Origin: Rhodococcus sp. Leaf278
GTDB taxonomy: Bacteria; Actinomycetota; Actinomycetes; Mycobacteriales; Mycobacteriaceae
Direction: 5' to 3'
DNA length: 64,000 bases
Assembly (NCBI RefSeq): GCF_001426085.1
Contig: NZ_LMRR01000009.1
Coordinates: forward strand, 1 to 64,000
Positions 192-16,680 of the stretch are shown here, piece after piece; the first letter of the stretch is position 1; every line of letters begins with the position of its first letter. A model generated the notes under the pieces. The model ran no database searches, was not told where the DNA came from, and saw only the letters and a list, made by a program, of their open reading frames with translations. The position numbers were made by a program, and so were the translations under genes.

Positions 192-555
192 GGTTGATGC
201 TCCTGAGATCTGATCGAGCAGCGGGAATCGGTGCCGCTGCGAATGTTGGAATCGAGTTAATATATCAGTTACCGGACAGTATCCAATGTTAAATGCGAGT
301 ATCGAATTCTTGCCTGGTCGCGCGCGCACGCTCGGATACCTGCAGCTGAACGCCTATTTGTAGACAGTAAGTACCGTGTCGAATCCATCGAAGTGCCGTG
401 CTATCTCTTGACATAGCCGTCGGGTCGGCTCAGTCTTGTTCGAGTTCAGGCAAATCGAAGTTGCGCAGAGAGCAACGCGTCGCGCATCTTTCCGACCATC
501 CACGCTGCGTGCACGGGCGACATACCTATTCGGCGAGAGCCGGAGGGAGAACGAT
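192..555. other. Divergent intergenic region (364 bp) between mscR and the BCCT transporter
   Basis: No gene is supported here. The mscR-proximal part is AT-rich and holds a promoter-like pair and a GntR-type operator (259-286 and 258-267). On the plus strand a TTGACA at 408-413 could be a -35 for the transporter, but no convincing -10 follows. An in-frame extension of the transporter reaches back to 436; it is rejected because it lacks a ribosome site and adds a basic, low-complexity leader unlike the family. Confidence 0.6.
258..286 (-). promoter_or_regulatory. mscR promoter with overlapping GntR-type operator
   Basis: On the minus strand TTGGAT (281-286) is separated by 16 bases from TATATT (259-264), a fair -35/-10 pair for mscR. 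The -10 is embedded in TAATATATCA (258-267), which differs by one base from the TGATATATCA found at the dimethylglycine oxidase and glyA promoters. A regulator bound here would block the -10. Confidence 0.5.
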
Positions 556-2199
556 GTGACAACGAACAGCAAACCCCGGAGCGACAAGACTCGGGTCGCC
601 GCTTCCGATAAACACGAACCTCATCATTACGGTCCTCTCGAGGTCTACCACCACGGAGAGGAGGGCAAGCCGCGCACGGACAAGGTGGTGTTCGGTATCA
701 CCGCCGCGATCGTGATCGCAATCCTCGTGTGGGGTGTTCTCGGCAAAGAGAACATGAAGTCCGTCAATGCGTCGGTACTCGACTGGGTCGTGACGAATAT
801 CGGCTGGCTCTTCATCTTCTCGGCCACCGGGTTCGTGATCTTCGCGATCTGGCTCGCGCTCAGTCGGTACGGAAAGATTCCGCTCGGCAAAGACGGCGAG
901 AAGCCCGAATTCAATACCGTCAGCTGGATCGCGATGATGTTCAGCGCCGGCATGGGAATTGGCCTGATCTTCTGGGGAGTGGCCGAGCCGCTCACCCACT
1001 TCGTTACTCCGCCGCCCGGAATCACCGATTCGACTGTGGGAACGGCACTGTCGACGGCCATCTTCCACTGGGGATTGCACCCGTGGTCGATGTACGCGGT
1101 GGTCGGATTGTCCATTGCATACGGCACCTACCGGATGGGCCGCAAGCAACTCATCAGCTCGTCGTTCATTCCGTTGATCGGCCGTCGCGCCGAGGGCCCC
1201 ATCGGCAAGGTCATCGACATCCTGGCGATCTTTGCCACCATGTTCGGTACTGCTGCCTCGCTCGGACTCGGTGCACTCCAGATCGGTTCGGGTATAGAGG
1301 TTCTCGGCTGGGTCAACCAAGCCGGGACGCTTCTGCTCGTAGCTGTCGTCGCCATTCTGACGCTCGCGTTCGTGGCCTCGGCAGTGTCCGGAGTGTCCAA
1401 GGGAATTCAGTGGCTGTCGAACATCAACATGGTGTTGGCCCTCGTGCTTGCGGTGTTCGTGTTCGTCGCAGGACCCACGGTGCTGATCCTGAACCTGTTG
1501 CCCACCACTCTCGGTGACTACGCGGCACACATCGCCGGAATGTCGGCGCGTTCGGCGGCGTCCGGTGGACCCGAGACGGAGTCCTGGCTCTCGTCCTGGA
1601 CCATCTTCTACTGGGCGTGGTGGATCTCGTGGACCCCCTTCGTCGGTATGTTCCTCGCTCGCATCAGTCGTGGCCGCACCATCCGCCAGTTCGTCATCGG
1701 CGTCATTCTCATTCCGACGTCGGTGAGCCTCGTCTGGTTCTCGATCTTCGGTGGAGCGGCAATCGGGCAGCAGCAGTCAGGAACCGAGGATTTGGTGGCC
1801 CTCGGTAAACCGGAATCGCAATTGTTCGCGGTTCTCGATCAGTTTCCGTTGGCCGGCATTTCGTCGGTGCTGGTGATGGTGTTGGTGGGCATCTTCTTCG
1901 TCAGTGGTGCAGACGCGGCGTCGATCGTGATGGGAACCCTGTCTCAGCGCGGCACTTTGGATCCGTCACGCGGCGTCGTCGCCTTCTGGGGATTGGTCAC
2001 CGGAGGCATCGCGATCCTGATGCTGTGGACGGGAGGATCGGACGCTCTGAGCGGACTGCAGACGATGACGATCATCGTGGCGGCACCGTTCGTGCTGGTG
2101 ATGATCGGTACGTGTGTCTCGCTCTACAAGGACGTCACCAACGATCCGTTCATCGTCAAGAACCCGAAGGCTCCGCCCAAAGTAAAAGCTGGAAAGTGA
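556..2199 (+). CDS. BCCT-family glycine betaine/choline transporter
   Basis: This is a 547-residue sodium-coupled betaine/choline/carnitine transporter, a polytopic membrane protein with about 12 helices after a hydrophilic N-terminus of about 50 residues. It has the glycine-rich GMGIG motif of betaine symporters near residue 132 and, near residue 355, the Trp box WWISWTPFVGMFLARISRGR, which matches the WWISWSPF substrate-binding motif of BetP. The start is GTG at 556, preceded by CGGAGGGAGA; an ATG at 554 is in another frame and is followed at once by a stop. The gene has its own terminator. With dimethylglycine and sarcosine oxidases next door, its likely job is importing betaine, or a demethylated derivative, as a carbon and nitrogen source rather than only for osmoprotection. 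The exact substrate is inferred from context. Confidence 0.9.
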   Translation: MTTNSKPRSDKTRVAASDKHEPHHYGPLEVYHHGEEGKPRTDKVVFGITAAIVIAILVWGVLGKENMKSVNASVLDWVVTNIGWLFIFSATGFVIFAIWLALSRYGKIPLGKDGEKPEFNTVSWIAMMFSAGMGIGLIFWGVAEPLTHFVTPPPGITDSTVGTALSTAIFHWGLHPWSMYAVVGLSIAYGTYRMGRKQLISSSFIPLIGRRAEGPIGKVIDILAIFATMFGTAASLGLGALQIGSGIEVLGWVNQAGTLLLVAVVAILTLAFVASAVSGVSKGIQWLSNINMVLALVLAVFVFVAGPTVLILNLLPTTLGDYAAHIAGMSARSAASGGPETESWLSSWTIFYWAWWISWTPFVGMFLARISRGRTIRQFVIGVILIPTSVSLVWFSIFGGAAIGQQQSGTEDLVALGKPESQLFAVLDQFPLAGISSVLVMVLVGIFFVSGADAASIVMGTLSQRGTLDPSRGVVAFWGLVTGGIAILMLWTGGSDALSGLQTMTIIVAAPFVLVMIGTCVSLYKDVTNDPFIVKNPKAPPKVKAGK

Positions 2200-2272: not shown

Positions 2273-4856
<2,584 letters not shown>

Positions 4857-4881: not shown

Positions 4882-5730
4882 ATGACCGAGAACTTCACCC
4901 TCACGCTCAGCTGCGGACAGCGGCCGGGCATCGTCCGGGCCGTCAGTGCGTTCCTGTTCGACAACGACTGCGACATCGCCGAACACCAACAATTCGACGA
5001 CTCGACGGACGGGTCGTTCTTCCTGCGCACGTCGTTCGTGGCCAGCCGCAGCACCGACATCGAGAAGCTGACCGAGAGTTTCCGGGAGGTGGCCGATCGA
5101 TTCGCGATGATGTACACCTTCAACGGCTGTAGTCAGCCGCGCGTACTCGTCATGGTCTCCAAGATGGGGCACTGCCTCAACGACCTCATCTTCCGTTGGC
5201 GTTCCCAGAATCTCGGCGGAGAACTTGTGGCCGTGGTCAGCAACCACGAGGTGCTCCGGCCGATGGCCGAGGCCGCGGGGTTGCCGTTCATCCACGTTCC
5301 CGTCACCCCCGGTACCAAAGCCGAAGCCGAGCAGCGTCTGCTGGACCTCGTCGCCGAGTACGAGGTGGACCTGGTGGTGCTGGCCCGCTACATGCAGGTG
5401 CTCTCCGACGAGACGTGTCGAGCGCTGCATGGCAAAGCCATCAACATCCACCACTCTTTCCTGCCCGGCTTCAAGGGTGCGAAGCCGTACCACCAGGCCT
5501 TCGACCGGGGCGTAAAGCAGGTCGGAGCGACGGCGCACTACGTCACTCCCGATCTCGACGAGGGCCCGATCATCGAGCAGCAGGTCATTCGCATCGACCA
5601 CACCCACGACCCGTCTCGTCTGGCCACCGTCGGACAGGACGCCGAGGCGCTCGCACTGTCGCGGGCCGTGCGCTGGCACTGCGAGAATCGCGTTCTGCTG
5701 CACGGACACCGGACGGTGATCTTCAGCTGA
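4882..5730 (+). CDS. purU: Formyltetrahydrofolate deformylase
   Basis: This 282-residue enzyme hydrolyses 10-formyl-THF to formate and THF. An N-terminal ACT-like domain (about residues 5-80) precedes a formyltransferase-fold catalytic domain with the diagnostic INIHHSFLPGFKGAKPYHQAF stretch (split here by its Asn and His catalytic residues) and DLDEGPIIEQ with the catalytic Asp. The start is ATG 4882 behind CAGGAGATTCG. It lies in the dimethylglycine oxidase transcript. There it would regenerate free THF from one-carbon units made by methyl oxidation, so that the folate-linked demethylases do not run out of acceptor. PurU genes are a usual partner of sarcosine oxidase clusters in actinobacteria. 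The normal housekeeping role in purine balance is less likely here because of the operon. Confidence 0.92.
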   Translation: MTENFTLTLSCGQRPGIVRAVSAFLFDNDCDIAEHQQFDDSTDGSFFLRTSFVASRSTDIEKLTESFREVADRFAMMYTFNGCSQPRVLVMVSKMGHCLNDLIFRWRSQNLGGELVAVVSNHEVLRPMAEAAGLPFIHVPVTPGTKAEAEQRLLDLVAEYEVDLVVLARYMQVLSDETCRALHGKAINIHHSFLPGFKGAKPYHQAFDRGVKQVGATAHYVTPDLDEGPIIEQQVIRIDHTHDPSRLATVGQDAEALALSRAVRWHCENRVLLHGHRTVIFS

Positions 5731-5897: not shown

Positions 5898-7280
5898 CTA
5901 ACACTCCACAAAACTGACCGGCACGTTGATCGCGAGACCGCCGCTCGAGGTCTCCTTGTACTTCGAATGCATGTCGGCACCGGTGGAGCGCATCGTCTCG
6001 ATCACCTGATCCAGGCTTACACGATGAGTACCGTTGCCGCGCAATGCCATTCGTGCAGCATTGATGGCCTTGCCAGCCGAGATGGCGTTGCGTTCGATGC
6101 ACGGAATCTGCACCAGCCCGCCGATGGGGTCGCACGTCAGGCCGAGGCTGTGTTCCATCGCGATCTCGGCGGCGTTCTCCACTTGTTCGGGTGTGCCGCC
6201 CAGTACCTCGGCCAGACCGGCAGCAGCCATCGATGCTGCCGAACCGACCTCGCCCTGGCAGCCCACTTCGGCACCGGAGATCGAGGCCATCTCCTTGTAG
6301 AGCGACCCGATCGCGCCGGCGGTGAGCAGAAAGCGCACCGTGCTGCCGTCGGGATCGGCGATCCCTGCGGCGGTGTAGCGAGTGGCGTAGTGCAGTACGG
6401 CCGGGATGATGCCCGCCGCACCGTTGGTGGGGGCTGTGACGATACGACCGCCGGACGCGTTCTCCTCGTTGACCGCGAGGGCCACGAGATTGACCCAATC
6501 CTCGGCGAATTCGCTCGAGCGGTGGGGGTCCTCGGCGTCGAGCCGCAGGAACCAGTCCCGTGCTCGACGCCGAACTCCCAGCGCGCCGGGGAGATAACCG
6601 TCGCGGGAGATACCGCGAACCTCGCACTCGACCATCACGTCGCGGATGTGCAGCAGTCCGTCTCGTATCTCGTCGAGCGTGCGGCGTTCGAGTTCGACCT
6701 CGGTCATGACGTCACTGATGCTGCAGTGTCGACGTTCACAGAGTTGGAGCAGTTCCTTGGCCGACGCGAACCCGTTGGCAGAGGCAAGGGGTGTAACAGC
6801 CTCGACGCTTTCGGCCTCGGTCACCACGAATCCGCCACCGACGGAGAAGTAGGTCTCGGAGTGCAGTTCGGTCGAATCTGCAGCGCGGGCAGTCAGTTTC
6901 ATTCCGTTGGGGTGGAACGGCAAGACCGTCAACGGACGCAACACGATGTCGTCGACCGCTAGGTCGATCTCGCGGTGACCACCGAAGACGATTCGGCGGG
7001 TGGCCGCCATCGATGCCTGCCGTTCTTCCATCACCTCGGTCGTGACGCTCTCGGGCGCATAACCTTCCAGCCCCAGCAGTACAGCGGTCATGGTGCCGTG
7101 TCCGGCTCCGGTCGCGGCCAACGAGCCGTACAGGTCCACCGTGACGTCTCGAACCTCGTCGAAGGCAGACATCGTGCGCAGATCGTCGACGAATCGAGCG
7201 GCCGCACGCATCGGCCCGACGGTATGCGAACTCGAGGGGCCGACTCCGATCGAAAAGAGGTCGAACACACTGATGGTCAT
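5898..7280 (-). CDS. sdaA: L-serine dehydratase, single-chain iron-sulfur type
   Basis: This 460-residue enzyme converts L-serine to pyruvate and ammonia using a 4Fe-4S cluster. The N-terminal beta domain carries [14 protein letters not shown] near residue 14; the alpha domain carries [13 protein letters not shown] and [13 protein letters not shown] with the cluster cysteines. The chain ends in Cys (FVEC), as in the type 2 enzymes where the terminal cysteine folds into the active site and ligates the cluster. The start is ATG 7280, overlapping the stop of the GcvH-like gene by four bases. As the last gene of the glyA-sox operon it drains serine made from glycine and methylene-THF into central metabolism, completing betaine to pyruvate. 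Confidence 0.93.
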
Positions 7281-7687
7281 GAGGTCGTCCCCACTGCGTC
7301 GGTGGGCTCGCGCGCGGTGAGATCCTCGAACGACGCGGCTGCGGGGGTCAGGACGGCGAACAGCCAGCCGGCGCCGAGCGGATCCGCGGCCACGATCGAG
7401 GGGTCCTCTTGTACAACGGGATTGACGATCGTGACCAAGCCGCTCGCCGGCGCGAACACCGTGACCGAGCCGGTGGACGTGCGGATGGTGCCGCACGCCT
7501 CACCTGCGGTGAGTACGGTACGAACCGACGGAAGGTCGACGCCGAGAATGTCGGACGCGCCGCCCAAGGCGTCCGGCGTCACACCCACTCGGCTCGGAGT
7601 CTGAGCGGGTGAGCCGAACGGGTCGACGGCCATCCAGCCGTGCTCAGCGCTGAAGAGCCGGCGGGCGGAGGAGAGGGATGCGGTCAT
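7277..7687 (-). CDS. GcvH-like protein lacking the lipoyl lysine
   Basis: This 136-residue protein has the fold signature of glycine cleavage H protein: EHGWMAVD near the N-terminus, [10 protein letters not shown], then [15 protein letters not shown] and [11 protein letters not shown]. In true GcvH the lipoylated lysine sits in E-S-T/V-K-S-V before the YAPVSG turn. Here the segment reads [18 protein letters not shown], with Thr at the lysine position and no lysine anywhere in the chain up to the C-terminus. It therefore cannot carry a lipoyl arm. It overlaps folP and sdaA by four bases on each side, so it is made with the sarcosine oxidase operon. No P protein or lipoylation gene is nearby. 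A non-catalytic binding or regulatory role is possible; the function is unknown. Confidence 0.75.
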
Positions 7688-8601
7688 GAGGTGGCCTCGG
7701 CATTCTTCGTGGATTGACCTGAAATCGAGTCGAGTGAACGCAGTGCCCGCAGCACGGCCAGTGCGTCGACGGTGGCGGCGACGTCATGCACCCGGAGGAG
7801 TGACGCCCCGTTCTGGGCCGCGACGATCGCGGCAGCGAGTGATCCGGCGAGCCGGTCGTCGACATCTCTTCCGGTGATGGCACCGATCATGCCTTTGCGG
7901 GACACGCCCGCCATGATCGGCCTGCCGGTCGAGTGCACCTTCCGAAGGCCATGGAGCAGTTGCAGATTGTGCTCGAGGGTCTTGCCGAATCCGAACCCCG
8001 GATCCACCAGAATGCGGTACGCCGGAATCCCGGCCCGGATGCATTCGGCAGCCCGGTCTTCGAGAAACTCGCACACCTCAGTAGTGACGTCGCGGTAGCG
8101 AGGGGAATGCTGCATCGTCGACGGCTCGCCCAGCATGTGCGTGAGGCACACGGCAACGTCCAGCTCGGCTGCGGCGTCGAGCGCACCCGGAAGACGAAGG
8201 GCACGAACGTCGTTGATGACACTTGCCCCGGCGCGCACCGCCTCTCGCATCACCTCGGGCCGGGAGGTGTCGACCGACAGCGGTGTCGAGGTGCGTCTGG
8301 ACAGGGCGTCGATCACCGGTACGACCCGGGCGATCTCCTCGTCGACGGTGGGTGGGATTGACCCGGGCCGGGTCGATTCGCCGCCGATGTCGAGCAGCTC
8401 GGCTCCCTCGTCGACCATCGACAGTGCATGCGCCACAGCACGATCGGTGTCCAGAAACATCCCTCCGTCGGAGAACGAATCCGGGGTGACGTTGACGATT
8501 CCGCAGACCACGGGATGTGAGGTCGTCAGCCGGGTCAGCAGTCGATCGCGGGCATCGGCTGCCCGTGTTGCGGTGGAGACGGTCGTGAGCACTACGGTCA
8601 C
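7684..8601 (-). CDS. folP: Dihydropteroate synthase in the sarcosine oxidase operon
   Basis: This 305-residue TIM-barrel enzyme joins p-aminobenzoate to hydroxymethyl-dihydropterin in folate synthesis. All hallmark motifs are present: NVTPDSFSDGG, DIGGESTRPG, VINDV, VDPGFGFGKTLEHN, GVSRKGMIG and RVHDVA. It is a little longer than usual at both ends. The start is taken as GTG 8601, 28 bases after soxG; an in-frame GTG at 8592 has a better spaced GAAAAGG site and may be the true start. It overlaps the GcvH-like gene by four bases. The operon context suggests it raises folate supply for the THF-dependent demethylases rather than serving as the housekeeping copy; an ordinary folate cluster is not seen here. 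Confidence 0.92.
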   Translation of the reverse strand: MTVVLTTVSTATRAADARDRLLTRLTTSHPVVCGIVNVTPDSFSDGGMFLDTDRAVAHALSMVDEGAELLDIGGESTRPGSIPPTVDEEIARVVPVIDALSRRTSTPLSVDTSRPEVMREAVRAGASVINDVRALRLPGALDAAAELDVAVCLTHMLGEPSTMQHSPRYRDVTTEVCEFLEDRAAECIRAGIPAYRILVDPGFGFGKTLEHNLQLLHGLRKVHSTGRPIMAGVSRKGMIGAITGRDVDDRLAGSLAAAIVAAQNGASLLRVHDVAATVDALAVLRALRSLDSISGQSTKNAEATS

Positions 8602-8629: not shown

Positions 8630-9205
8630 TCAGACGTCGGTGTATTCCTCGGCCGCGTCGGTCAGCCAGGTTGCGAGATAGCGTGCGAACGACGAGCGCA
8701 CGAGGATGCGGTAGTCCGTTCCCGTGTCGTCGCAGGCGATGAGGATCATGCCTGCCATCGACAGCATCGTCTGGACCGTCGAGCCTGCCGGGAAGACGCG
8801 GGGGTGCAGATCGATCGAGCATCCCTTCGCCAACACCTCGCGGGCTCGGGAACCACTGAGCCGCAGACAGGTGCGCTGCGCGGACACGTCCGTTGCCGCA
8901 CCCCGATGCTCGCGAACAGCCGCACCGAGACGGTGTTCGAGTTCGACGGGATCGAGGCCGGCTCCGATCACCAGCCACTCCTCGGGGCCGAGCCAGATGG
9001 CCGTGGTGTTCGTGCCCTCGGCGACGCGGCCGGGGCCGGGGAGTTCGGTGCCGAGCGCGGCCGAGGCGGCGCCACCGCCCGGTCCGTTCGGATCGACCCA
9101 CAGGTCGATACCGGCGAGGAACGGCTCCTCCACGATCCGGACAGCAGGCGAATCCGGCAGGACTGTCTCTGCGAGCGGGCTTCTGGCGGCGAGTCGGTCA
9201 GCCAT
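8630..9205 (-). CDS. soxG: Sarcosine oxidase, gamma subunit
   Basis: This 191-residue protein is the smallest folate-domain-like subunit of heterotetrameric sarcosine oxidase (SoxBDAG). It shows the gamma-subunit pattern WLGPEEWLVIG near residue 70, VSAQRTCLRLSG and a C-terminal DYRILVRSSFARYLATWLTDAAEEY. The start is ATG 9205, which overlaps the soxA stop by eight bases; an open frame further upstream is only out-of-frame soxA sequence. The order soxB-D-A-G is that of characterised actinobacterial sarcosine oxidase operons. The product probably has no separate catalytic activity and helps assemble the complex. Confidence 0.88.
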   Translation of the reverse strand: MADRLAARSPLAETVLPDSPAVRIVEEPFLAGIDLWVDPNGPGGGAASAALGTELPGPGRVAEGTNTTAIWLGPEEWLVIGAGLDPVELEHRLGAAVREHRGAATDVSAQRTCLRLSGSRAREVLAKGCSIDLHPRVFPAGSTVQTMLSMAGMILIACDDTGTDYRILVRSSFARYLATWLTDAAEEYTDV

Positions 9206-12041
9206 CACGGCGGTTACCTTCCGGGTCGACGAGTACGGAGCCGGTGACTTCGACGGCGACGAGGGTGTCGCCGACCGGGACGTGCAGGATGTCGCCGAGT
9301 CGGTCACGTCCGGCTTCGAGCAGGGCCAGCCCGAACGGGCGGCCCAGTTCTGCGCTGGCGTAACTCGACGTGACGTGGCCGAGCATCGGTACCGGAAGTT
9401 CGGGGAGGACGCCGCTCTCGGAGTGCTCGATGATCTGCGAGCCCTCGGGGAGGACGGTTTCCCGGTCGACGGGCAGTAGGCCGACGAACTGCTTACGCAA
9501 CGGGTTCCGGTTCTCGGCGCGGTCGAACGAGCGCTTTCCGATGAAGTCGAGCTTCTTCTTCGATACCGCCCAGCTCATGCCGAGATCCTGCGGGGTGACG
9601 GTGCCGTCGGTGTCCTGGCCGACGATCGGGTAACCCTTCTCGGCCCGCAGCACGTGCATGGTCTCGGTGCCGTACGGGGTGATGCCGTACTTCTCGCCGG
9701 CCTCGATCAGCCGCGACCACAGTGCGTGGGCGTGCCAGGAATCGATGTTCACCTCGAAGGCGAGTTCGCCGGAGAAGCTGATTCGTGCCACGCGTACCGG
9801 CACACCGTCGATCGAAGCATCTCGCCACGCCATGAAGGGGAACGCCTCGTTGGAGACGTCGAGTTCGGGAAAGAATTCACCGACGAGATCGCGGGAACGC
9901 GGTCCGACGACGGGGAACGTGGCCCATTGCTCGGTCACCGAGGTCAGCCGAACCGTGAGGTGCGGCCACTCGGTCTGCAGCCATTCCTCCATCCAGTCGA
10001 GCATTCCTGCTGCGCCGCCGGTGGTGGTGAACACCTGGAATCGATCGTCCGCCAGCCGCATCACGGTGCCGTCGTCGATGACCATGCCGTCGGTACCGCA
10101 CATCACGCCGTACCGAACCATGCCGACCTTCAAGTTGCTCATCATGTTCGTGTAGAACATGTCGAGCACCACACCCGCGTCGGGACCCTGCACGTCGATC
10201 TTGCCGAGTGTCGAACCGTCGAGCATGCCGACGCTCGCACGCACCGCAGCGCATTCCCGGAGCACGGCGTCGTGCATCTCTTCGCCGGGCAGGGGGTAGT
10301 AGCGGGGCCGCTTCCACTGTCCTACGTCCTCGAAGACCGCACCGCGTGCGACGTGCCAATCATGGACTGCGGTAACGCGTTCCGGGTCGAAAGCCATGCC
10401 GCGATTGCGACCGGCCAACGCCGCGAACGCCACCGGGGTGTACGGCGGGCGGAACGTGGTGGTGCCGAGGTTTTCCACCGGCTTGTCGAGCAGTTCGGCC
10501 ACGATGCCCGAGGACACCACACCGGAGGTCTTGCCCTGATCGTGTGCGGTGCCGATTGTGGTGTAGCGCTTGATGTGTTCCATCGAGGACATGCCTGCAC
10601 CGACGGCGCGGACCAGATCGGCCACCGTCGCATCACGCTGGACGTCGACGAACTGGCTGTCGGCTCCGAAGTCGTCGCGCACCCGCCACAGCACCAGCGA
10701 CTCGCTACTGGGCAGGGAATCGACTGCTGGTAGGGGAGTTTCGGTGACAGAGAAGCCGAGACCGGCCAGTGCTTCTGCTGCTGCCGAGCTGCCACCTCCG
10801 ATGCAGCCGGCCAGATCGAACACGCCCGATGCCGACCCGGCGACGCTGATGCCCTCGACGTCGTCCGCCGGCACGAATGCTCCGAGTGTGCCGTCGTAGC
10901 GCAGCTTTCCGCGGGCCTGGCTGAACAGGTGGACAGCGGGGTTCCAGCCACCGCTGACGAGAAGGACGTCGCAGGCCACGGTGTCGGTGGCACCGTCGGC
11001 ACCGGTCACCAAAGCATGGGTGACGCGGGTGTCGCCGCGGGTGCCGGATACGACGCTGCCGGTACGCACCTCGATGCCGCGTTCGCGGCACAGGCCGAGC
11101 CAGTGTTCGGGCGCAGTGACGCGGGCGTCGACGATGCGCGCGATGCGGACCCCGGCGTCGTGCAGATCGACGGCGGCCTTGTACGCGCTGTCGTTGGTGG
11201 TGAAGACCACGGCCTCGGTTCCTACCGTCACGCCGTAGCGATGCAGGAACGTCCGTGCGCTGTGCGCCAACATGATTCCGGGTCGATCGTTGTCGGTGAA
11301 GACGACGGGACGTTCGTGGGCGCCGGTGGCTACCAGGATATGACGTGAACGAATACGCCAGACTCGCTGACGGCTCAGCGCGGCAGGCGCTTCCAAGCCC
11401 AGGTGATCAGTGCGGCGCTCGAGGGCGAGCACGAAGCCGTCGTCGTAGGAACCGAACGCGGTGGTGCGGCGCAGCAGGGTCACGTCGGGGAAGGTGGACA
11501 ACTCGGTCACCGCGTCGGCCACCCATTCCAGGGCCGGCCGTCCGTCGATGACGTCGTCGGAGCCGAGCAGGGAGCCGCCGAACTCGCTCTGATCGTCGAC
11601 GACGACCACGCGAGCGCCACTGCGGGCAGCGACCAGAGCAGCCGTCAGACCGGCCGGTCCTGCCCCGACGACCAACAGGTCCGCGTGGGCGTGCATCGCG
11701 TCGTACTTGGCGGAGTCGGAGATCTCGGCGAGACGCCCCTGCCCGGGGATGCCGCGGGCGACCAGGCCGTCGTACAGCTCGATGGTCGTGGCGAGCAGCA
11801 TCGGCTCGGGAAACGGCTCCTCGATCTGTACGAGTCCGCCGGTGTCCTCGGCCCATGCTGCGGTGAATCCACGGGGCCTGCCGAGCTTGATGCTGGTGGT
11901 GACCTGATGAATGCCGTTGGCGAGCAACGCAGATGCCAGCGTGTCACCCGGGTGGCCCTGCAGGGCAGAGCCGCCGAACGTGAAGTCGAAGGTGCTCGTG
12001 CGGTCGATGCGGCCGCGGGATGCGGTGCGGAATGCGGTCAT
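9198..12041 (-). CDS. soxA: Sarcosine oxidase, alpha subunit
   Basis: This is the 947-residue large subunit of heterotetrameric sarcosine oxidase, which oxidises sarcosine to glycine, hydrogen peroxide and 5,10-methylene-THF. It starts with a ferredoxin-like domain lacking cysteines (FGGSALQGHPGDTLASALLANG, about residues 20-45). A nucleotide-binding oxidoreductase domain follows, with VVGAGPAGLTAALVAARSGA near residue 125 and the NAD site farther on. The second half is a GcvT plus GcvT C-terminal folate domain, including GELAFEVN and LRAEKGYPIVGQDTDGTVTP. The start is ATG 12041, overlapping soxD by four bases. Length is normal and no key motif is missing. Confidence 0.93.
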   Translation of the reverse strand: MTAFRTASRGRIDRTSTFDFTFGGSALQGHPGDTLASALLANGIHQVTTSIKLGRPRGFTAAWAEDTGGLVQIEEPFPEPMLLATTIELYDGLVARGIPGQGRLAEISDSAKYDAMHAHADLLVVGAGPAGLTAALVAARSGARVVVVDDQSEFGGSLLGSDDVIDGRPALEWVADAVTELSTFPDVTLLRRTTAFGSYDDGFVLALERRTDHLGLEAPAALSRQRVWRIRSRHILVATGAHERPVVFTDNDRPGIMLAHSARTFLHRYGVTVGTEAVVFTTNDSAYKAAVDLHDAGVRIARIVDARVTAPEHWLGLCRERGIEVRTGSVVSGTRGDTRVTHALVTGADGATDTVACDVLLVSGGWNPAVHLFSQARGKLRYDGTLGAFVPADDVEGISVAGSASGVFDLAGCIGGGSSAAAEALAGLGFSVTETPLPAVDSLPSSESLVLWRVRDDFGADSQFVDVQRDATVADLVRAVGAGMSSMEHIKRYTTIGTAHDQGKTSGVVSSGIVAELLDKPVENLGTTTFRPPYTPVAFAALAGRNRGMAFDPERVTAVHDWHVARGAVFEDVGQWKRPRYYPLPGEEMHDAVLRECAAVRASVGMLDGSTLGKIDVQGPDAGVVLDMFYTNMMSNLKVGMVRYGVMCGTDGMVIDDGTVMRLADDRFQVFTTTGGAAGMLDWMEEWLQTEWPHLTVRLTSVTEQWATFPVVGPRSRDLVGEFFPELDVSNEAFPFMAWRDASIDGVPVRVARISFSGELAFEVNIDSWHAHALWSRLIEAGEKYGITPYGTETMHVLRAEKGYPIVGQDTDGTVTPQDLGMSWAVSKKKLDFIGKRSFDRAENRNPLRKQFVGLLPVDRETVLPEGSQIIEHSESGVLPELPVPMLGHVTSSYASAELGRPFGLALLEAGRDRLGDILHVPVGDTLVAVEVTGSVLVDPEGNRRDG

Positions 12042-12316
12042 GGGTTCACCGGCTTCGGGTCGTCGAGGCGATAGACACTGTGGATTCGGTAGGTAGCGGT
12101 GTCCCGTACGGCATTGAACCAACGCCTGCACCCTGCGCTGTGGCTCCACCGTTCCGCGAAGAGCCCCTTGGGGTTGTCGCGGAAGAACACGAAGTGCGCC
12201 CACTGTTCGTCGGTCAGAGCCGAGGGCTCCTCGGGGTAGGCGATGTGCGCCTGGCCGCCGTAGTGGAACTCGGTCTCTTCTCGACTCCCGCACCACGGGC
12301 ATTCGATCAATTGCAT
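12038..12316 (-). CDS. soxD: Sarcosine oxidase, delta subunit
   Basis: This 92-residue subunit binds zinc through CPWC near the N-terminus together with the later His/Cys pair in SHSAGCRRWFN. The AHIAYPEEP segment and the RDTATYRI C-terminus are typical of SoxD. The start is ATG 12316, 50 bases after soxB; the coupled ATGA joins it to soxA. The length is the family norm of roughly 90-100 residues. It has no catalytic role of its own in the family and is needed for assembly of the heterotetramer. Confidence 0.9.
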   Translation of the reverse strand: MQLIECPWCGSREETEFHYGGQAHIAYPEEPSALTDEQWAHFVFFRDNPKGLFAERWSHSAGCRRWFNAVRDTATYRIHSVYRLDDPKPVNP

Positions 12317-12366: not shown

Positions 12367-13605
12367 CTAGTGAGCCACGCCTGCGGCACCGTGCTCGTCC
12401 ACCAGCGCACCGGTGACGAATCGGTCCAGACTGAAGGGCGCGATGTACTCGTGCACTTCGTCGTTGGCGATGGTGTCGGCCAGGCACCAGCCGGCACCGG
12501 GGGTCGCCTTGAATCCGCCCGTGCCCCAACCGCAATTGAGGAACACGTTGTCGAACGGCGTGCGTCCGACGATGGGGGAGGCGTCGGGACAGACGTCGAC
12601 GATGCCGGCCCACGTGCGCAGCAGGTGCGCACGAGCGAACACGGGGAACAACTCGACCGCGGCTGCCATCTGCCGTTCGATGATGTGGAAGGCACCGCGC
12701 TGGCCGTAGCCGTTGTAGGAGTCGACGCCCGCGCCCATCACCAGTTCACCCTTGTGCGCCTGGGAGACGTACACGTGCACGGCATTCGACATGACGACTG
12801 TGGGATGCACCGGCTCGAGCAGTTCCGAGACCAGCGCCTGCAGCGGGTGGCTCTGCAGTGGAGTCTTGATGCCGAGCATGTCCGTGAGCGTCGAGGTGTG
12901 CCCGGCCGCGCACAGAGCCACCTGGCCGGTGGCGATGTCGCCGCGCGTGGTCTTGACCCCGGTGACGCGATTGCCGTCGGTGGTGAAGCCGGTGACCTCA
13001 CAGTTTTGGATGATGTCGATACCGGCCGCGTCGGCGCGTCGGGCAAATCCCCAGGCGACGTAGTCGTGCTTGGCGATACCGGCGCGCGGCTGGTACGTCG
13101 CACCGAGCACCGGGTAGCGAATGTCGCTGGAGATATTGACGATTGGGCACAGCTTCTTGACCTCGTCGGGATCGACCCATTGAGCGTCGATGCCGTTGAG
13201 ACGGTTGGCCTCGACGCGTCGCACGCTGTCGCGGACGTCCTGCAGGCTGTGCGCGAGGTTCAGGACGCCGCGCTGGCTGAACAGGATGGGGTAGTCGAGG
13301 TCGTCGGCGAGCCCCTCCCAGAGCTTGAGCGAATGCTCGTAGATGCGCGCGCTCTCGTCCCACAGGTAGTTCGAGCGGATCAGGGTGGTGTTGCGCGCCA
13401 TGTTGCCGCCGGCGAGCCATCCCTTCTCCAGCACAGCCACATTGGTGATGCCGTGGTTCTTGGCGAGGTAGTGCGCGGTGGCCAGGCCGTGTCCGCCGCC
13501 GCCGATGATCACGACGTCGTAGGACTTCTTCGGCTCGGGGTTGCGCCACAGGAAGTCCGGGTGGTCGGGCAGATGTGCGCCCGGTGGGGTTGCGGGGGCG
13601 GTCAT
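12367..13605 (-). CDS. soxB: Sarcosine oxidase, beta subunit
   Basis: This 412-residue flavoprotein subunit carries the sarcosine-oxidising site and a covalently bound FMN. An FAD/FMN amine-oxidase fold opens with [22 protein letters not shown] (residues 31-52), and the AKHDYVAWG segment holds His180, the likely covalent flavin site by analogy with the characterised corynebacterial enzyme. Near the C-terminus are [17 protein letters not shown] and the SoxB ending. The start is ATG 13605, overlapping the glyA stop by four bases. It is the second gene of the operon and, with soxD, soxA and soxG, completes the enzyme that turns sarcosine into glycine. Confidence 0.93.
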
Positions 13606-14930
13606 CGGTAGCCTTCCGTCAGGTCGGAGTAGAGGGGGAACTGCGCGGCAACGGATTCGACCCGGGTGCGCAGGGCATCGAGGCCGCGGTCGTCGGTGTC
13701 GGGGCGCAACGCGTGGGCGATGACGTCGGATACCTCGGCGAACGCCGTGGCGTCCAGGCCGCGCGTCGCGAGAGCCGGGGTGCCGATGCGGACGCCGGAG
13801 CTCACCATGGGTGGCCGTGGATCGAACGGAACTGCATTGCGGTTCACGGTGATTCCGACGTGATGCAGTCTGTCCTCGGCCTGTTTTCCGTCCAGTTCGG
13901 ACGTGCGCAGGTCCACCAGAACGAGATGGACGTCGGTGCCGCCCGAGACCACGTCGATGCCTGCGGCCGCTGCGTCGTCGGTCAGCAGTCGATCGGCCAG
14001 AATTTTCGCGCCTTCGAGGGTGCGCTGCTGACGTTCCCGAAAGTCCTCTTCGGCAGCGAGTTTGAACGACACTGCCTTTGCCGCGATCACGTGCTCCAGC
14101 GGGCCACCCTGCTGGCCGGGAAAGACCGACGAGTTGAACTTCTTTGCCAGAGCGGCGTCGTTGGTGATGATGACACCACCGCGTGGGCCGCCGAGAGTCT
14201 TGTGCGTGGTGGAGGTGACCACGTGTGCGTGCGGTACGGGTGACGGGTGGAGCCCGGCGGCGACCAGACCGGCGAAGTGCGCCATGTCCACCATCAGATA
14301 GGCCCCGACTTCGTCTGCGATGCGGCGGAATTCGGCGAAGTCGAGGTGACGAGGGTAAGCGGACCAGCCGGCCATGATCAGCTTGGGGCGGTGCTCGTGG
14401 GCGAGGCGCTCCACCTCGGCCATATCGACGAGATGGTCGTGTTCACGGACGTGGTAGGCGGAGACGTCGTAGAGCTTGCCCGAGAAGTTCAGTTTCATAC
14501 CGTGCGTCAGGTGTCCGCCGTGGGCGAGTGCGAGACCGAGAATCGAATCGCCGGGCTGCAGCAGTGCCGCCATTGCAGCGGCATTGGCCTGTGCACCGGA
14601 GTGCGGCTGCACGTTGGCGAACGACGACCCGAACAAGGAATTGAGGCGGTCGATCGCGAGTTGCTCGATGACGTCGACGTTTTCGCAACCGCCGTAGTAG
14701 CGCCGGCCGGGGTAGCCCTCGGCATACTTGTTCGTCAGTACCGAACCCTGCGCCTGCATGACGGCCAGTGGTGCGAAGTTCTCGCTCGCGATCATCTCCA
14801 GGGTGTTCTGCTGGCGGCCGAGCTCGGCACTGATCGCGCGGTGCACCTCGGGATCGAGATCGGCGAGAACACGGTTCGTCACGCCCCTCGGGTGCGGTGC
14901 CGTCGCCGTCGGTGCGAAGTCCTGCGTCAA
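13602..14930 (-). CDS. glyA: Serine hydroxymethyltransferase
   Basis: This 442-residue PLP enzyme interconverts glycine plus 5,10-methylene-THF and serine. It shows IASENF, the [18 protein letters not shown] region and the PLP lysine in [14 protein letters not shown]. The start is a TTG at 14930, chosen because AGAAGGG lies nine bases upstream and no in-frame ATG or GTG is better placed. It opens the eight-gene operon. In this setting it consumes both products of SoxBDAG, glycine and methylene-THF, and hands serine to SdaA at the other end of the transcript, so it is probably a catabolic copy distinct from a housekeeping GlyA. The N-terminal 20 residues are a less conserved extension. Confidence 0.92.
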
Positions 14931-15048: not shown

Positions 15049-15720
15049 ATGACGATCGAAGTTCAGCCGGTGATCGATGCAACGCAGTTTGTCGGAACCA
15101 ATGCCGATCGAGCCTACGAAATAGTGCGTGAGCAGCTGATCATGCTGGAAATTCGTCCGGGTGAACCGATCAACGACGATCGCCTGGCCGAGCAATTGGG
15201 ACTGGGACGAACCCCGATTCGTGAGGGTCTCAAACGACTCGAGCGCGAGCGACTCGTCGTTGCTTACCCTCGCCGCGGAACCTTCGCCACCGCCGTCGAC
15301 ATGACCGATCTGGCCAACATCTCGGAGATTCGCAAGCAACTCGAGCCTGCGGCCTCGGCCCGAGCGGCGCGCACGGCCACCCGGGCAGCGCGAGACCGGC
15401 TGGCGGAACTCGCAGCCTCCATCGCGAGTATCGAGGACACCGACGATTCACGTGAGGTGCTGCGCAAAGATGTTGCCGTGCATCGGGAAATCTATCGGGC
15501 CTCGGGGAATCCCCACCTCGAAGACATCCTGGTCAGCCTCGACGCACATGCCACCCGCATCTGGTGCATGTTCCTCGACCGACTGCCGAACGTCGCCGGC
15601 CACGTTCGTGAACACGTCGTGCTGCTGCAGGCCATCATCGACGGCGATGCCGACACCGCAGCGGAATTGACGCTCGAACACGTCACCGGGTTCGAGAACG
15701 CCATCAGGGAATTGCTGTAA
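15049..15720 (+). CDS. GntR-family (FCD) regulator, likely of betaine catabolism
   Basis: This 223-residue protein has an N-terminal winged helix (about residues 15-85, with DDRLAEQLGLGRTPIREGLKRLERERLV) and a C-terminal FCD effector domain with the metal- and acid-binding Asp/His pattern (VHREIYRASGNPH, HVREHVVLL). It is divergent from glyA across a 118-bp control region. A TGATATATCA palindrome occurs there and at the dimethylglycine oxidase and mscR promoters, so this is the obvious candidate reader. FCD proteins commonly sense small carboxylates, so sarcosine, dimethylglycine or betaine is a reasonable ligand. Its last 17 bases overlap the 3' end of the converging LysR gene. Confidence 0.9.
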   Translation: MTIEVQPVIDATQFVGTNADRAYEIVREQLIMLEIRPGEPINDDRLAEQLGLGRTPIREGLKRLERERLVVAYPRRGTFATAVDMTDLANISEIRKQLEPAASARAARTATRAARDRLAELAASIASIEDTDDSREVLRKDVAVHREIYRASGNPHLEDILVSLDAHATRIWCMFLDRLPNVAGHVREHVVLLQAIIDGDADTAAELTLEHVTGFENAIRELL

Positions 15721-16639
15721 CTGCAGCCGAAATTCGCTCCGCAGCACCTCTCAGCGCGGTCGAGATCGCGTACATCGCCGGTGTGTATTGGCGCCGAGCG
15801 AGGGACGCGATGTAGATGACGCGCGTCGGTACCCGATCCGTTTCGGGGAAATCGATGGTGGTGACGTCGGGTCGGTGGTGAATCACCGACAACCCAGGAA
15901 CCATCGCGATGCCGACACCGGCAGCCACCATGGCCTCGATTTCCTGATAGTCGTGGGCCTCGTACACGACGTCGGGGTCGAATCCTGCTACGCGACAACT
16001 GCGATAGAGAACTTCGGCGGCCGGGTGATCGTTGCTGCGGATGATCCATCGCGCGTCACGAAGATCGTGCAGCGAGACGTCGTGCTGCAATCGATCGTCG
16101 TCGATCGGCAGTAGCAGCACGGTCGGGTCCTCCATCAGCGGCTCGAGTGACAGTGAGCGTTCTGCCTCCTCCGTCCAGGCATAGCTCCACAGCAGCGCCA
16201 GGTCGATCTCGCTCGAATGCAGCATGTCCAGCAGCTGCGGACGTACCGCCGATCGAACCCGGACGTCGACGCCGGGCCACCGCGAGTGGTAGTCCTTCAG
16301 TGCGTCGGAGAGTAGAGACGCACTGACCGTGGGAAACGAGCCGAGCCGAACCGAACCGCGTTCGAGCCCTCGGATTGCTTCGAGGTCGCCGCTCGCCGCC
16401 CGCATCTCCCGTCTGAACAGGCGAGCGCGGCTGGTGAGGATTTCGCCGGCTTCGGTGAGTTGCACGCCGCGTGGCAGTCGCGTCAAGACCGGCTGTTTGA
16501 TGCCGTGTTCGAGTTTGCTGATGCGCTGGGACGCCGCGGACGGGGTCATGTTCGCCCGTTCGGCACCTGCGGTCAGGGAGCCGGCCTCGGCGATATCGAG
16601 CAGAAGGAACAGCGTCACGACGTCGAACGTGTGGTTCAT
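15704..16639 (-). CDS. LysR-family regulator (copy 1)
   Basis: This 311-residue LysR-type regulator has an N-terminal helix-turn-helix (AEAGSLTAGAERANMTPSAASQRISKLE) and a LysR substrate-binding domain beginning near residue 90 (GSVRLGSFPTVSASLL). The start is ATG 16639; an upstream in-frame ATG at 16678 lacks a ribosome site. It is divergent from the MatC-like permease and PrpF gene, the usual position of a LysR regulator relative to its target. It resembles the LysR encoded at 19428-20324 along its whole length (both have the GVxLTEAGE and LGSFPT/IGTFPT segments), so the two are paralogues with equivalent roles. Its 3' end overlaps gntR. Confidence 0.88.
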   Translation of the reverse strand: MNHTFDVVTLFLLLDIAEAGSLTAGAERANMTPSAASQRISKLEHGIKQPVLTRLPRGVQLTEAGEILTSRARLFRREMRAASGDLEAIRGLERGSVRLGSFPTVSASLLSDALKDYHSRWPGVDVRVRSAVRPQLLDMLHSSEIDLALLWSYAWTEEAERSLSLEPLMEDPTVLLLPIDDDRLQHDVSLHDLRDARWIIRSNDHPAAEVLYRSCRVAGFDPDVVYEAHDYQEIEAMVAAGVGIAMVPGLSVIHHRPDVTTIDFPETDRVPTRVIYIASLARRQYTPAMYAISTALRGAAERISAAVTAIP

Positions 16640-16680
16640 GCGAATATCTTTCAGCTGAGCTAAACGACTAGGTAGCAAAA

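Follow-up and report, generated by a model that had tools for sequence, protein, structure and literature searches.

A lysine-free H protein at a sarcosine oxidase locus

Why should bacteria maintain a glycine cleavage system H protein (GcvH) that has no lysine to carry its lipoyl arm? The question is raised by a locus in Rhodococcus sp. Leaf278 (contig NZ_LMRR01000009.1, positions 1 to 64,000; this whole stretch of 64,000 nucleotides is the window of our analysis), where a GcvH homologue of 136 amino acids, here termed H*, is encoded at 7277–7687 on the minus strand, between folP and sdaA within a glyA-soxBDAG operon. The protein has a predicted H-protein fold, places Thr72 at the position of the lipoyl lysine and contains no lysine at all, confirming what an earlier note on this DNA had pointed out. 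Its gene shares a 4-base ATGA overlap with either neighbor, the folP stop with the H* start (7684–7687, minus strand) and the H* stop TGA (7277–7279) with the sdaA start ATG (7278–7280; overlap 7277–7280, minus strand). The note had taken the gene to be translationally coupled to folP and sdaA; that H* is produced together with the demethylating enzymes would follow from the gene order. We propose, with a chance that we consider close to even, that H* is a lipoyl-less GcvH paralogue that no longer acts as an aminomethyl carrier and would do no more than bind the enzymes that lead from sarcosine to pyruvate, in the first place the L-serine ammonia-lyase SdaA.

Loss of the lipoyl hairpin and retention of the body

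The former lipoyl hairpin of H* comprises codons 67–77 (T-I-R-T-S-T72-G-S-V-T-V; 7457–7489, minus strand, counted from the gene start at 7687), with threonine replacing the lysine of the ES[TV]K motif. The window protein scores 51.9 bits against the GcvH profile TIGR00527 (cut-off 115.85) and 60.1 bits against NF002270 (cut-off 117), and five other H* proteins reach 43–66 and 49–83 bits, respectively. TIGR00527 alone is no clean separator, since the lysine-bearing protein P0042 falls below its cut-off (110.5 bits) while exceeding that of NF002270 (125.3 bits). A profile search of a large protein set gave 134 matches, and among the 120 listed 41 lack the lysine and 79 possess it. Within these listed matches the difference extends beyond the lysine itself: the glutamate of the HEW motif is found in 77 of 78 lysine-bearing but in none of the 40 readable lysine-less proteins, a glutamate three residues before the lysine in 79/79 versus 0/41, and an aspartate or glutamate four residues after it in 78/79 versus 0/41.

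For the H protein of E. coli, Glu-12, Glu-14, Ser-67, Asp-68 and Tyr-70 have been described as residues that hold and release the aminomethyl arm, based on simulation and on Ser-67 mutants (PMC7733448). By our own mapping of the E. coli numbering onto H*, Gly17 and Thr76 occupy the positions of Glu-14 and Asp-68 in the window protein, and a glutamate is retained at that of Glu-12. As the counterparts of arm-holding Glu-14 and Asp-68 are missing, the aminomethyl docking considered in the earlier note is unlikely. Beyond the anchor lysine, most of the arm machinery is gone from the predicted protein, whose sequence excludes chemistry via lysine-bound lipoate.

The pattern of conservation has been inverted between the two parts of the protein. 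Across hairpin columns 66–76 the mean entropy is 0.42 bits in 37 lysine-bearing rows versus 1.95 bits in 26 H* rows, while the remaining 84 columns yield 1.29 and 1.20 bits, so that the hairpin is far more conserved than the body in real GcvH and less conserved than the body in H*. Residues retained in the H* body include H16, W18, P31, R33, G35, L52-P53, C65, P80, G83, N89, P96, D102-P103 and the GWLFA motif. His16 and Trp18 are invariant in 26/26 H* rows, and His16 matches E. coli His-13, a residue that contacts the arm according to the same source (PMC7733448). Newly prevalent in H* are Ala20 and Leu113 (26/26 rows) and Arg56 (88%).

The lipoyl site itself is variable. Besides threonine it holds Ala, Arg, Gly, Leu, Trp, His or Gln; in the nine closest clusters (P0001–P0009) it is T in two and A in seven, with R, G, L, W, H and Q farther out. 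The constant threonine envisaged in the earlier note was therefore not found, and a fixed functional role of this residue is ruled out, alanine being commoner even within the genus. Lysines elsewhere number 0 in the window protein and its six genus orthologues, which rules out lipoylation at another lysine in these, and 0 to 3 in other H* proteins; the total lack of lysine is a weak point (P about 0.05) and was set aside.

Conservation across genomes

We sampled 37 genomes of the genus and 301 of the family, loci being given for the best 30 genomes of the latter. An orthologue at 79–100% identity is present in 7 of the 37 genus genomes, the window's included, and is lysine-free and located between folP and sdaA in all seven; ESTK is retained in all 23 further GcvH loci that were read within the genus. 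In the family sample, 12 loci have H* beside sdaA or sox, and the site residue in these is R, H, W, G or A, never K; the remaining GcvH loci read outside the genus have K in 14 of 14. Counted over all same-locus orthologues, window included, a lipoyl lysine (ESxK) occurs in 0 of 23, and these H*-bearing sox-locus genomes span five genera. Among loci with neighbors read, the lysine is lost only in sox-linked copies. Lysine-less protein matches with gene context unread include Rhodococcus opacus and Nocardia species, and Rhodococcoides fascians NBRC 12155, Hoyosella altamirensis and Aldersonia kunmingensis are among the sampled genomes. In an order-level profile search (348 genomes), 29 loci were read, and the gene of the window was the only lysine-less one among them.

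The occurrence in 23 genomes rules out a chance loss in one strain, and the loss of the same site across many assemblies rules out a sequencing error. A replacement of the housekeeping GcvH by H* is likewise ruled out, as both are present in the window's own genome, which elsewhere encodes a lysine-bearing GcvH as well as a GcvP. Minor irregularities were seen at the C-terminus, which is shorter in the H* of genome G030, while the match in G094 continues past a TGA at the C-terminal end. An eighth genus case, G027 (locus L095), holds an H* fragment, and its soxA and sdaA matches are broken up across several frames; this is a single-contig assembly, and the broken frames reflect either decay or assembly errors.

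The ratio of non-synonymous to synonymous substitution rates (dN/dS; Nei-Gojobori, 21 pairs of 7 orthologues) has a median of 0.18 for H* (0.13–0.34), with medians of 0.16 for folP, 0.10 for soxG and 0.057 for sdaA. By this estimate H* is under purifying selection, weaker than that on sdaA. Together with the 0/23 count, this bears out the earlier note's supposition of a conserved protein as opposed to a local loss.

Origin of the lysine-less clade

A GcvH tree was built without the lipoyl columns and contained 26 of the 41 lysine-less proteins, the other 15 being left out as near-copies or as short or extended rows. H* forms a single clade of 26 rows including P0001 (support 96/86), characterized by the missing lipoyl lysine and, in the loci read, by the sox setting. 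A split supported by 100/99 groups it with the lysine-bearing GcvHs from catabolic operons, apart from the 'housekeeping' set, which is loosely labelled in that some of its rows also adjoin gcvT. The four catabolic operons read (L171–L174) are arranged gcvP-gcvT-gcvH-glyA-sdaA, with gcvT called from a GcvT-like domain match. Genome G098 has a lone lysine-bearing gcvH-sdaA pair, and its GcvH joins H* at a fork supported by 100/98, together with the lysine-bearing Nocardia proteins P0042 and P0044. Outside the family, a lysine-bearing gcvH directly precedes sdaA in 8/8 fetched loci, which had been chosen for having sdaA nearby, and no sox, glyA or gcvPT match was found there within 16 kilobases (kb). 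In a tree of SdaA without a proper outgroup, 20 proteins from sox loci, including that of a second sox copy in genome G299, group together (100/99) next to catabolic SdaA, the exception being the very distant row of G076. The simplest history is probably that a gcvH-sdaA unit entered the sox locus and that the carrier site was lost afterwards.

Several independent lysine losses are rejected on the basis of the one clade (96/86), although a second loss may have occurred in a different genus, g15, where a pair of very divergent lysine-less GcvHs is encoded behind purU at sox loci (L093 in G094, L094 in G076). In these the lipoyl sites are Ala and Gly, HDW and QNW replace HEW, and support for a sister position to H* is just 87/68; they may be a separate case. 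Lysine-bearing gcvH-sdaA pairs occur in several families of the window's order (L178–L185, and L175; order- and family-level loci); gcvP, gcvT, glyA and sox were unmatched in the stretch read around them.

H* is associated with sdaA

A tally merging the two overlapping samples gave a soxG match in 46 genomes, of which 42 were classified after leaving out three weak cases (G142, G285, G221) and the fragmentary G027; absence of H* was judged within 12–16 kb around soxG. H* is present in 23/42, counting G054 as positive, where H*-sdaA and sox lie on different contigs. An sdaA on the same strand accompanies 22 of the 23 H* loci versus 0 of the 19 sox loci lacking H* (Fisher value 4.5e-11, shared ancestry ignored), and two of these 19 have sdaA on the opposite strand, about 3 kb past soxB. 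In G255 and G284, opposite-strand genes stand between folP and H*, so that H*-sdaA and sox do not share a transcript there, and the pairing of H* with sdaA is therefore tighter than its tie to sox. Two loci have H* and sdaA spaced without overlap, by 48 (L088) and 72 bases (L080). Genome G033 has a SoxA with 95% identity and soxB, soxA and soxG present, but glyA, folP, H* and sdaA are absent from the stretch read. Taken with the tally, this argues that H* is not required for sarcosine oxidase itself and tracks the glycine-to-pyruvate branch.

Related loci show some further variation. In locus L155 of genome G290, glyA and sox genes precede a folP match that falls into two frames, and both H* and sdaA are missing; a complete gcvP-gcvT-gcvH-glyA-sdaA operon is present elsewhere in that genome (L174). 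A pabC-like class IV aminotransferase follows folP in some related loci, and some have an opposite-strand pabA/pabB-like gene beside H* (L078, 8497–9156, plus strand; L080, 6922–9011, minus strand; L088, 1473–3602, minus strand; that of L088 was scored, that of L080 called by eye). Folate synthesis thus seems to be supplied by the sarcosine locus itself.

Proposed role and alternative explanations

In the scenario that we favor, a gcvH-sdaA unit from a glycine-catabolic setting would have joined the sarcosine oxidase locus. There the carrier role would become unnecessary, because sarcosine oxidase already gives glycine and methylene-tetrahydrofolate (methylene-THF) to GlyA and SdaA. The body would be retained by binding a protein of the module leading from sarcosine via glycine and serine to pyruvate, so that H* might act as a stabilizing or regulatory partner with no cofactor chemistry. 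SdaA would be the likeliest candidate, being the oldest, closest and most constant gene neighbor before and after lysine loss, with the GcvT-like domain of SoxA as the second choice. The suggestion in the earlier note that H* might regulate SdaA or GlyA is possible in this sense and fits the gene association; of its wider reading of a new role, the conserved lysine-less H protein at sox loci has held up, while the constant threonine and the aminomethyl docking have not. A further-reaching version, which we regard as possible but doubtful, is that H proteins have a second, cofactor-free partner role, with SdaA or the GcvT-like domain of sarcosine oxidase, which already exists in lysine-bearing gcvH-sdaA pairs and became the sole role after joining the sarcosine locus.

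Several observations weigh against such a partnership. Nineteen of 42 sox loci lack H* in the 12–16 kb read, and the second sox copy of G299 (L168) has glyA and sdaA without H*, so neither sarcosine oxidase nor SdaA generally needs it. The association with sdaA is uncorrected for shared ancestry, and immediate neighbors can be co-inherited. In genus g15, purU separates H* from sdaA in G076, and there is no sdaA in the stretch read of G094. Judged by dN/dS, H* changes at about three times the rate of SdaA, and the window protein keeps the counterpart of E. coli Glu-12. Finally, in the portion of the source available, the gene set of Arthrobacter sp. Rue61a is glyA, soxBDAG, sdaA and purU, with no H protein named (PMC3534580).

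The drifted hairpin, the faster evolution relative to sdaA, the absence at 19/42 sox loci, the shortened C-terminus in G030 and the fragment in G027 alongside frame-split soxA and sdaA matches would all suit a relic that became jobless on joining the sox locus and whose fold persists while doing nothing specific; in the window's genus, overlapping start and stop codons perhaps make its deletion costly. We take this seriously as an alternative but consider it rather unlikely, as the frame is kept open in 23 genomes of five genera, the median dN/dS is near that of folP (0.18 and 0.16), the body matches that of lysine-bearing H proteins in its conservation (1.20 vs 1.29 bits), Ala20, Leu113 and Arg56 have become prevalent, and H* is retained even where it does not overlap sdaA (L088, L080).

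Two further explanations invoke the docking face of the H protein and are ranked lower, because both would use the hairpin face, which has drifted. H* might be a plug or docking piece that occupies the GcvT-like folate domain in SoxA, or that in the dimethylglycine-oxidase-like protein, at the place used by a genuine H protein, guarding the imine or formaldehyde or aiding the handover of methylene-THF to GlyA. The homologous T protein is what genuine H proteins dock to (T-H complexes 3a8i-k), sox is present in all 23 H* genomes, at the same locus save for the contig break in G054, and among loci with neighbors read lysine loss is confined to sox-linked copies; but the part that drifted is the expected docking face, 19 sox loci do without H*, its presence tracks sdaA and not sox, and G033 lacks it in spite of a 95% identical SoxA, which makes this explanation improbable. 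Still less probable is a decoy that competes with lipoylated GcvH for GcvP or GcvT, leaving glycine free to be made into serine when the cell grows on sarcosine. Its logic suits loci that also hold glyA and sdaA, and both a GcvP and a lysine-bearing GcvH are indeed encoded elsewhere in the genome, yet a decoy should keep the docking hairpin, which is erased and variable in H*. That the emptied arm cavity binds a small molecule (THF, glycine or formaldehyde) appears very improbable: in related loci H* has folP, the pabC-like aminotransferase and the pabA/pabB-like genes close by, and His16 and Trp18 are invariant, but the polar residues of the cavity are lost. Folate binding is not known for H proteins, which also counts against a binder.

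Relation to known systems

Nearest to H* in the tree is GcvH (PF01597, TIGR00527, NF002270), above all the lysine-bearing form encoded in gcvP-gcvT-gcvH-glyA-sdaA operons and in gcvH-sdaA pairs within the family and order of the window. The two share the fold, body residues (H16, W18, P31, R33, G35, L52-P53, C65, N89, D102-P103, GWLFA) and the sdaA neighbor, whereas H* lacks the lipoyl lysine, the HEW glutamate and the hairpin Glu/Asp, has a variable hairpin, scores below both NCBIfam cut-offs and has no adjoining gcvP or gcvT. H* is thus classed as an H-protein paralogue without the defining feature of GcvH. The lipoyl lysine defines GcvH in use, but databases still call H* 'glycine cleavage system protein H', and misnamed proteins are indicated in Rhodococcus, Rhodococcoides, Nocardia, Hoyosella and Aldersonia. 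Here, at sox in the loci read and nearly always next to sdaA, a clade has given up the cofactor site but not the body. This natural separation offers a way of asking whether H proteins do more than carry aminomethyl groups, and lysine-bearing gcvH-sdaA pairs without adjoining gcv genes pose the same question more widely.

GcvH-L proteins belong to a gene cluster with a SirTM sirtuin, a macrodomain protein and a lipoate ligase. GcvH-L of Streptococcus (PDB 5a35) has 13% identity to H*, and its customary sirtuin and macrodomain partners are absent from the genes identified in the window operon. The chlamydial GcvH-like family TIGR03077 gives 33.9 bits with H* (cut-off 144.05). LbpA of Hdr-like sulfur oxidation resembles H* as a GcvH relative re-used outside glycine cleavage, and is the nearest such relative found; it retains a strictly conserved lysine, two near-terminal cysteines (some archaeal ones excepted) and hdr neighbors (PMC6067878), while H* is devoid of the site lysine, contains a single cysteine and has sox, folP and sdaA as neighbors. 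In Corynebacterium sp. U-96 and Arthrobacter, the clusters for sarcosine degradation are described as comprising glyA, soxBDAG, sdaA and purU (PMC3534580). The window operon shares this sarcosine-to-pyruvate gene set and differs by the insertion of folP and H* between soxG and sdaA. In openly licensed PMC papers we recognized no description of a lysine-less GcvH or of an H protein in sox operons.

Organization of the window locus

The operon is headed by glyA (serine hydroxymethyltransferase; 13602–14930; NF000586, 595 bits) and, like H*, runs on the minus strand. The sarcosine oxidase genes follow as soxB (beta; 12367–13605; TIGR01373, 622 bits), soxD (delta, 92 amino acids; 12038–12316; an unscored frame named by its position between soxB and soxA), soxA (alpha, with the C-terminal GcvT-like domain; 9198–12041; TIGR01372, 1197 bits for 9198–12095) and soxG (gamma; 8630–9205; PF04268, 80 bits; TIGR01375, 117.7 bits, under the cut-off of 143.95). 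Next come folP (dihydropteroate synthase; 7684–8601; TIGR01496, 317 bits, cut-off 162.6) and, beyond H*, sdaA (5898–7280; TIGR00720, 644 bits for 5898–7277, cut-off 345), whose start was taken as the ATG in the overlap, the listed open reading frame running longer (5898–7496). Convergent to these on the plus strand lie purU (formyltetrahydrofolate deformylase; 4882–5730; TIGR00655, 318 bits) and, upstream of it, a fusion resembling dimethylglycine oxidase with flavin adenine dinucleotide and GcvT domains (2391–4856; Pfam DAO, FAO_M, GCV_T, GCV_T_C), itself preceded by a BCCT betaine/carnitine/choline transporter gene (436–2199, plus strand). This region resembles an island for converting glycine betaine to pyruvate. 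A promoter pattern gave 0 matches in the window, with 0.42 expected. Just upstream of glyA, genes for a GntR/FCD regulator (15049–15720, plus strand) and a LysR regulator (15704–16678, minus strand) overlap at their 3' ends, and both regulators are candidate controllers of the sox operon.
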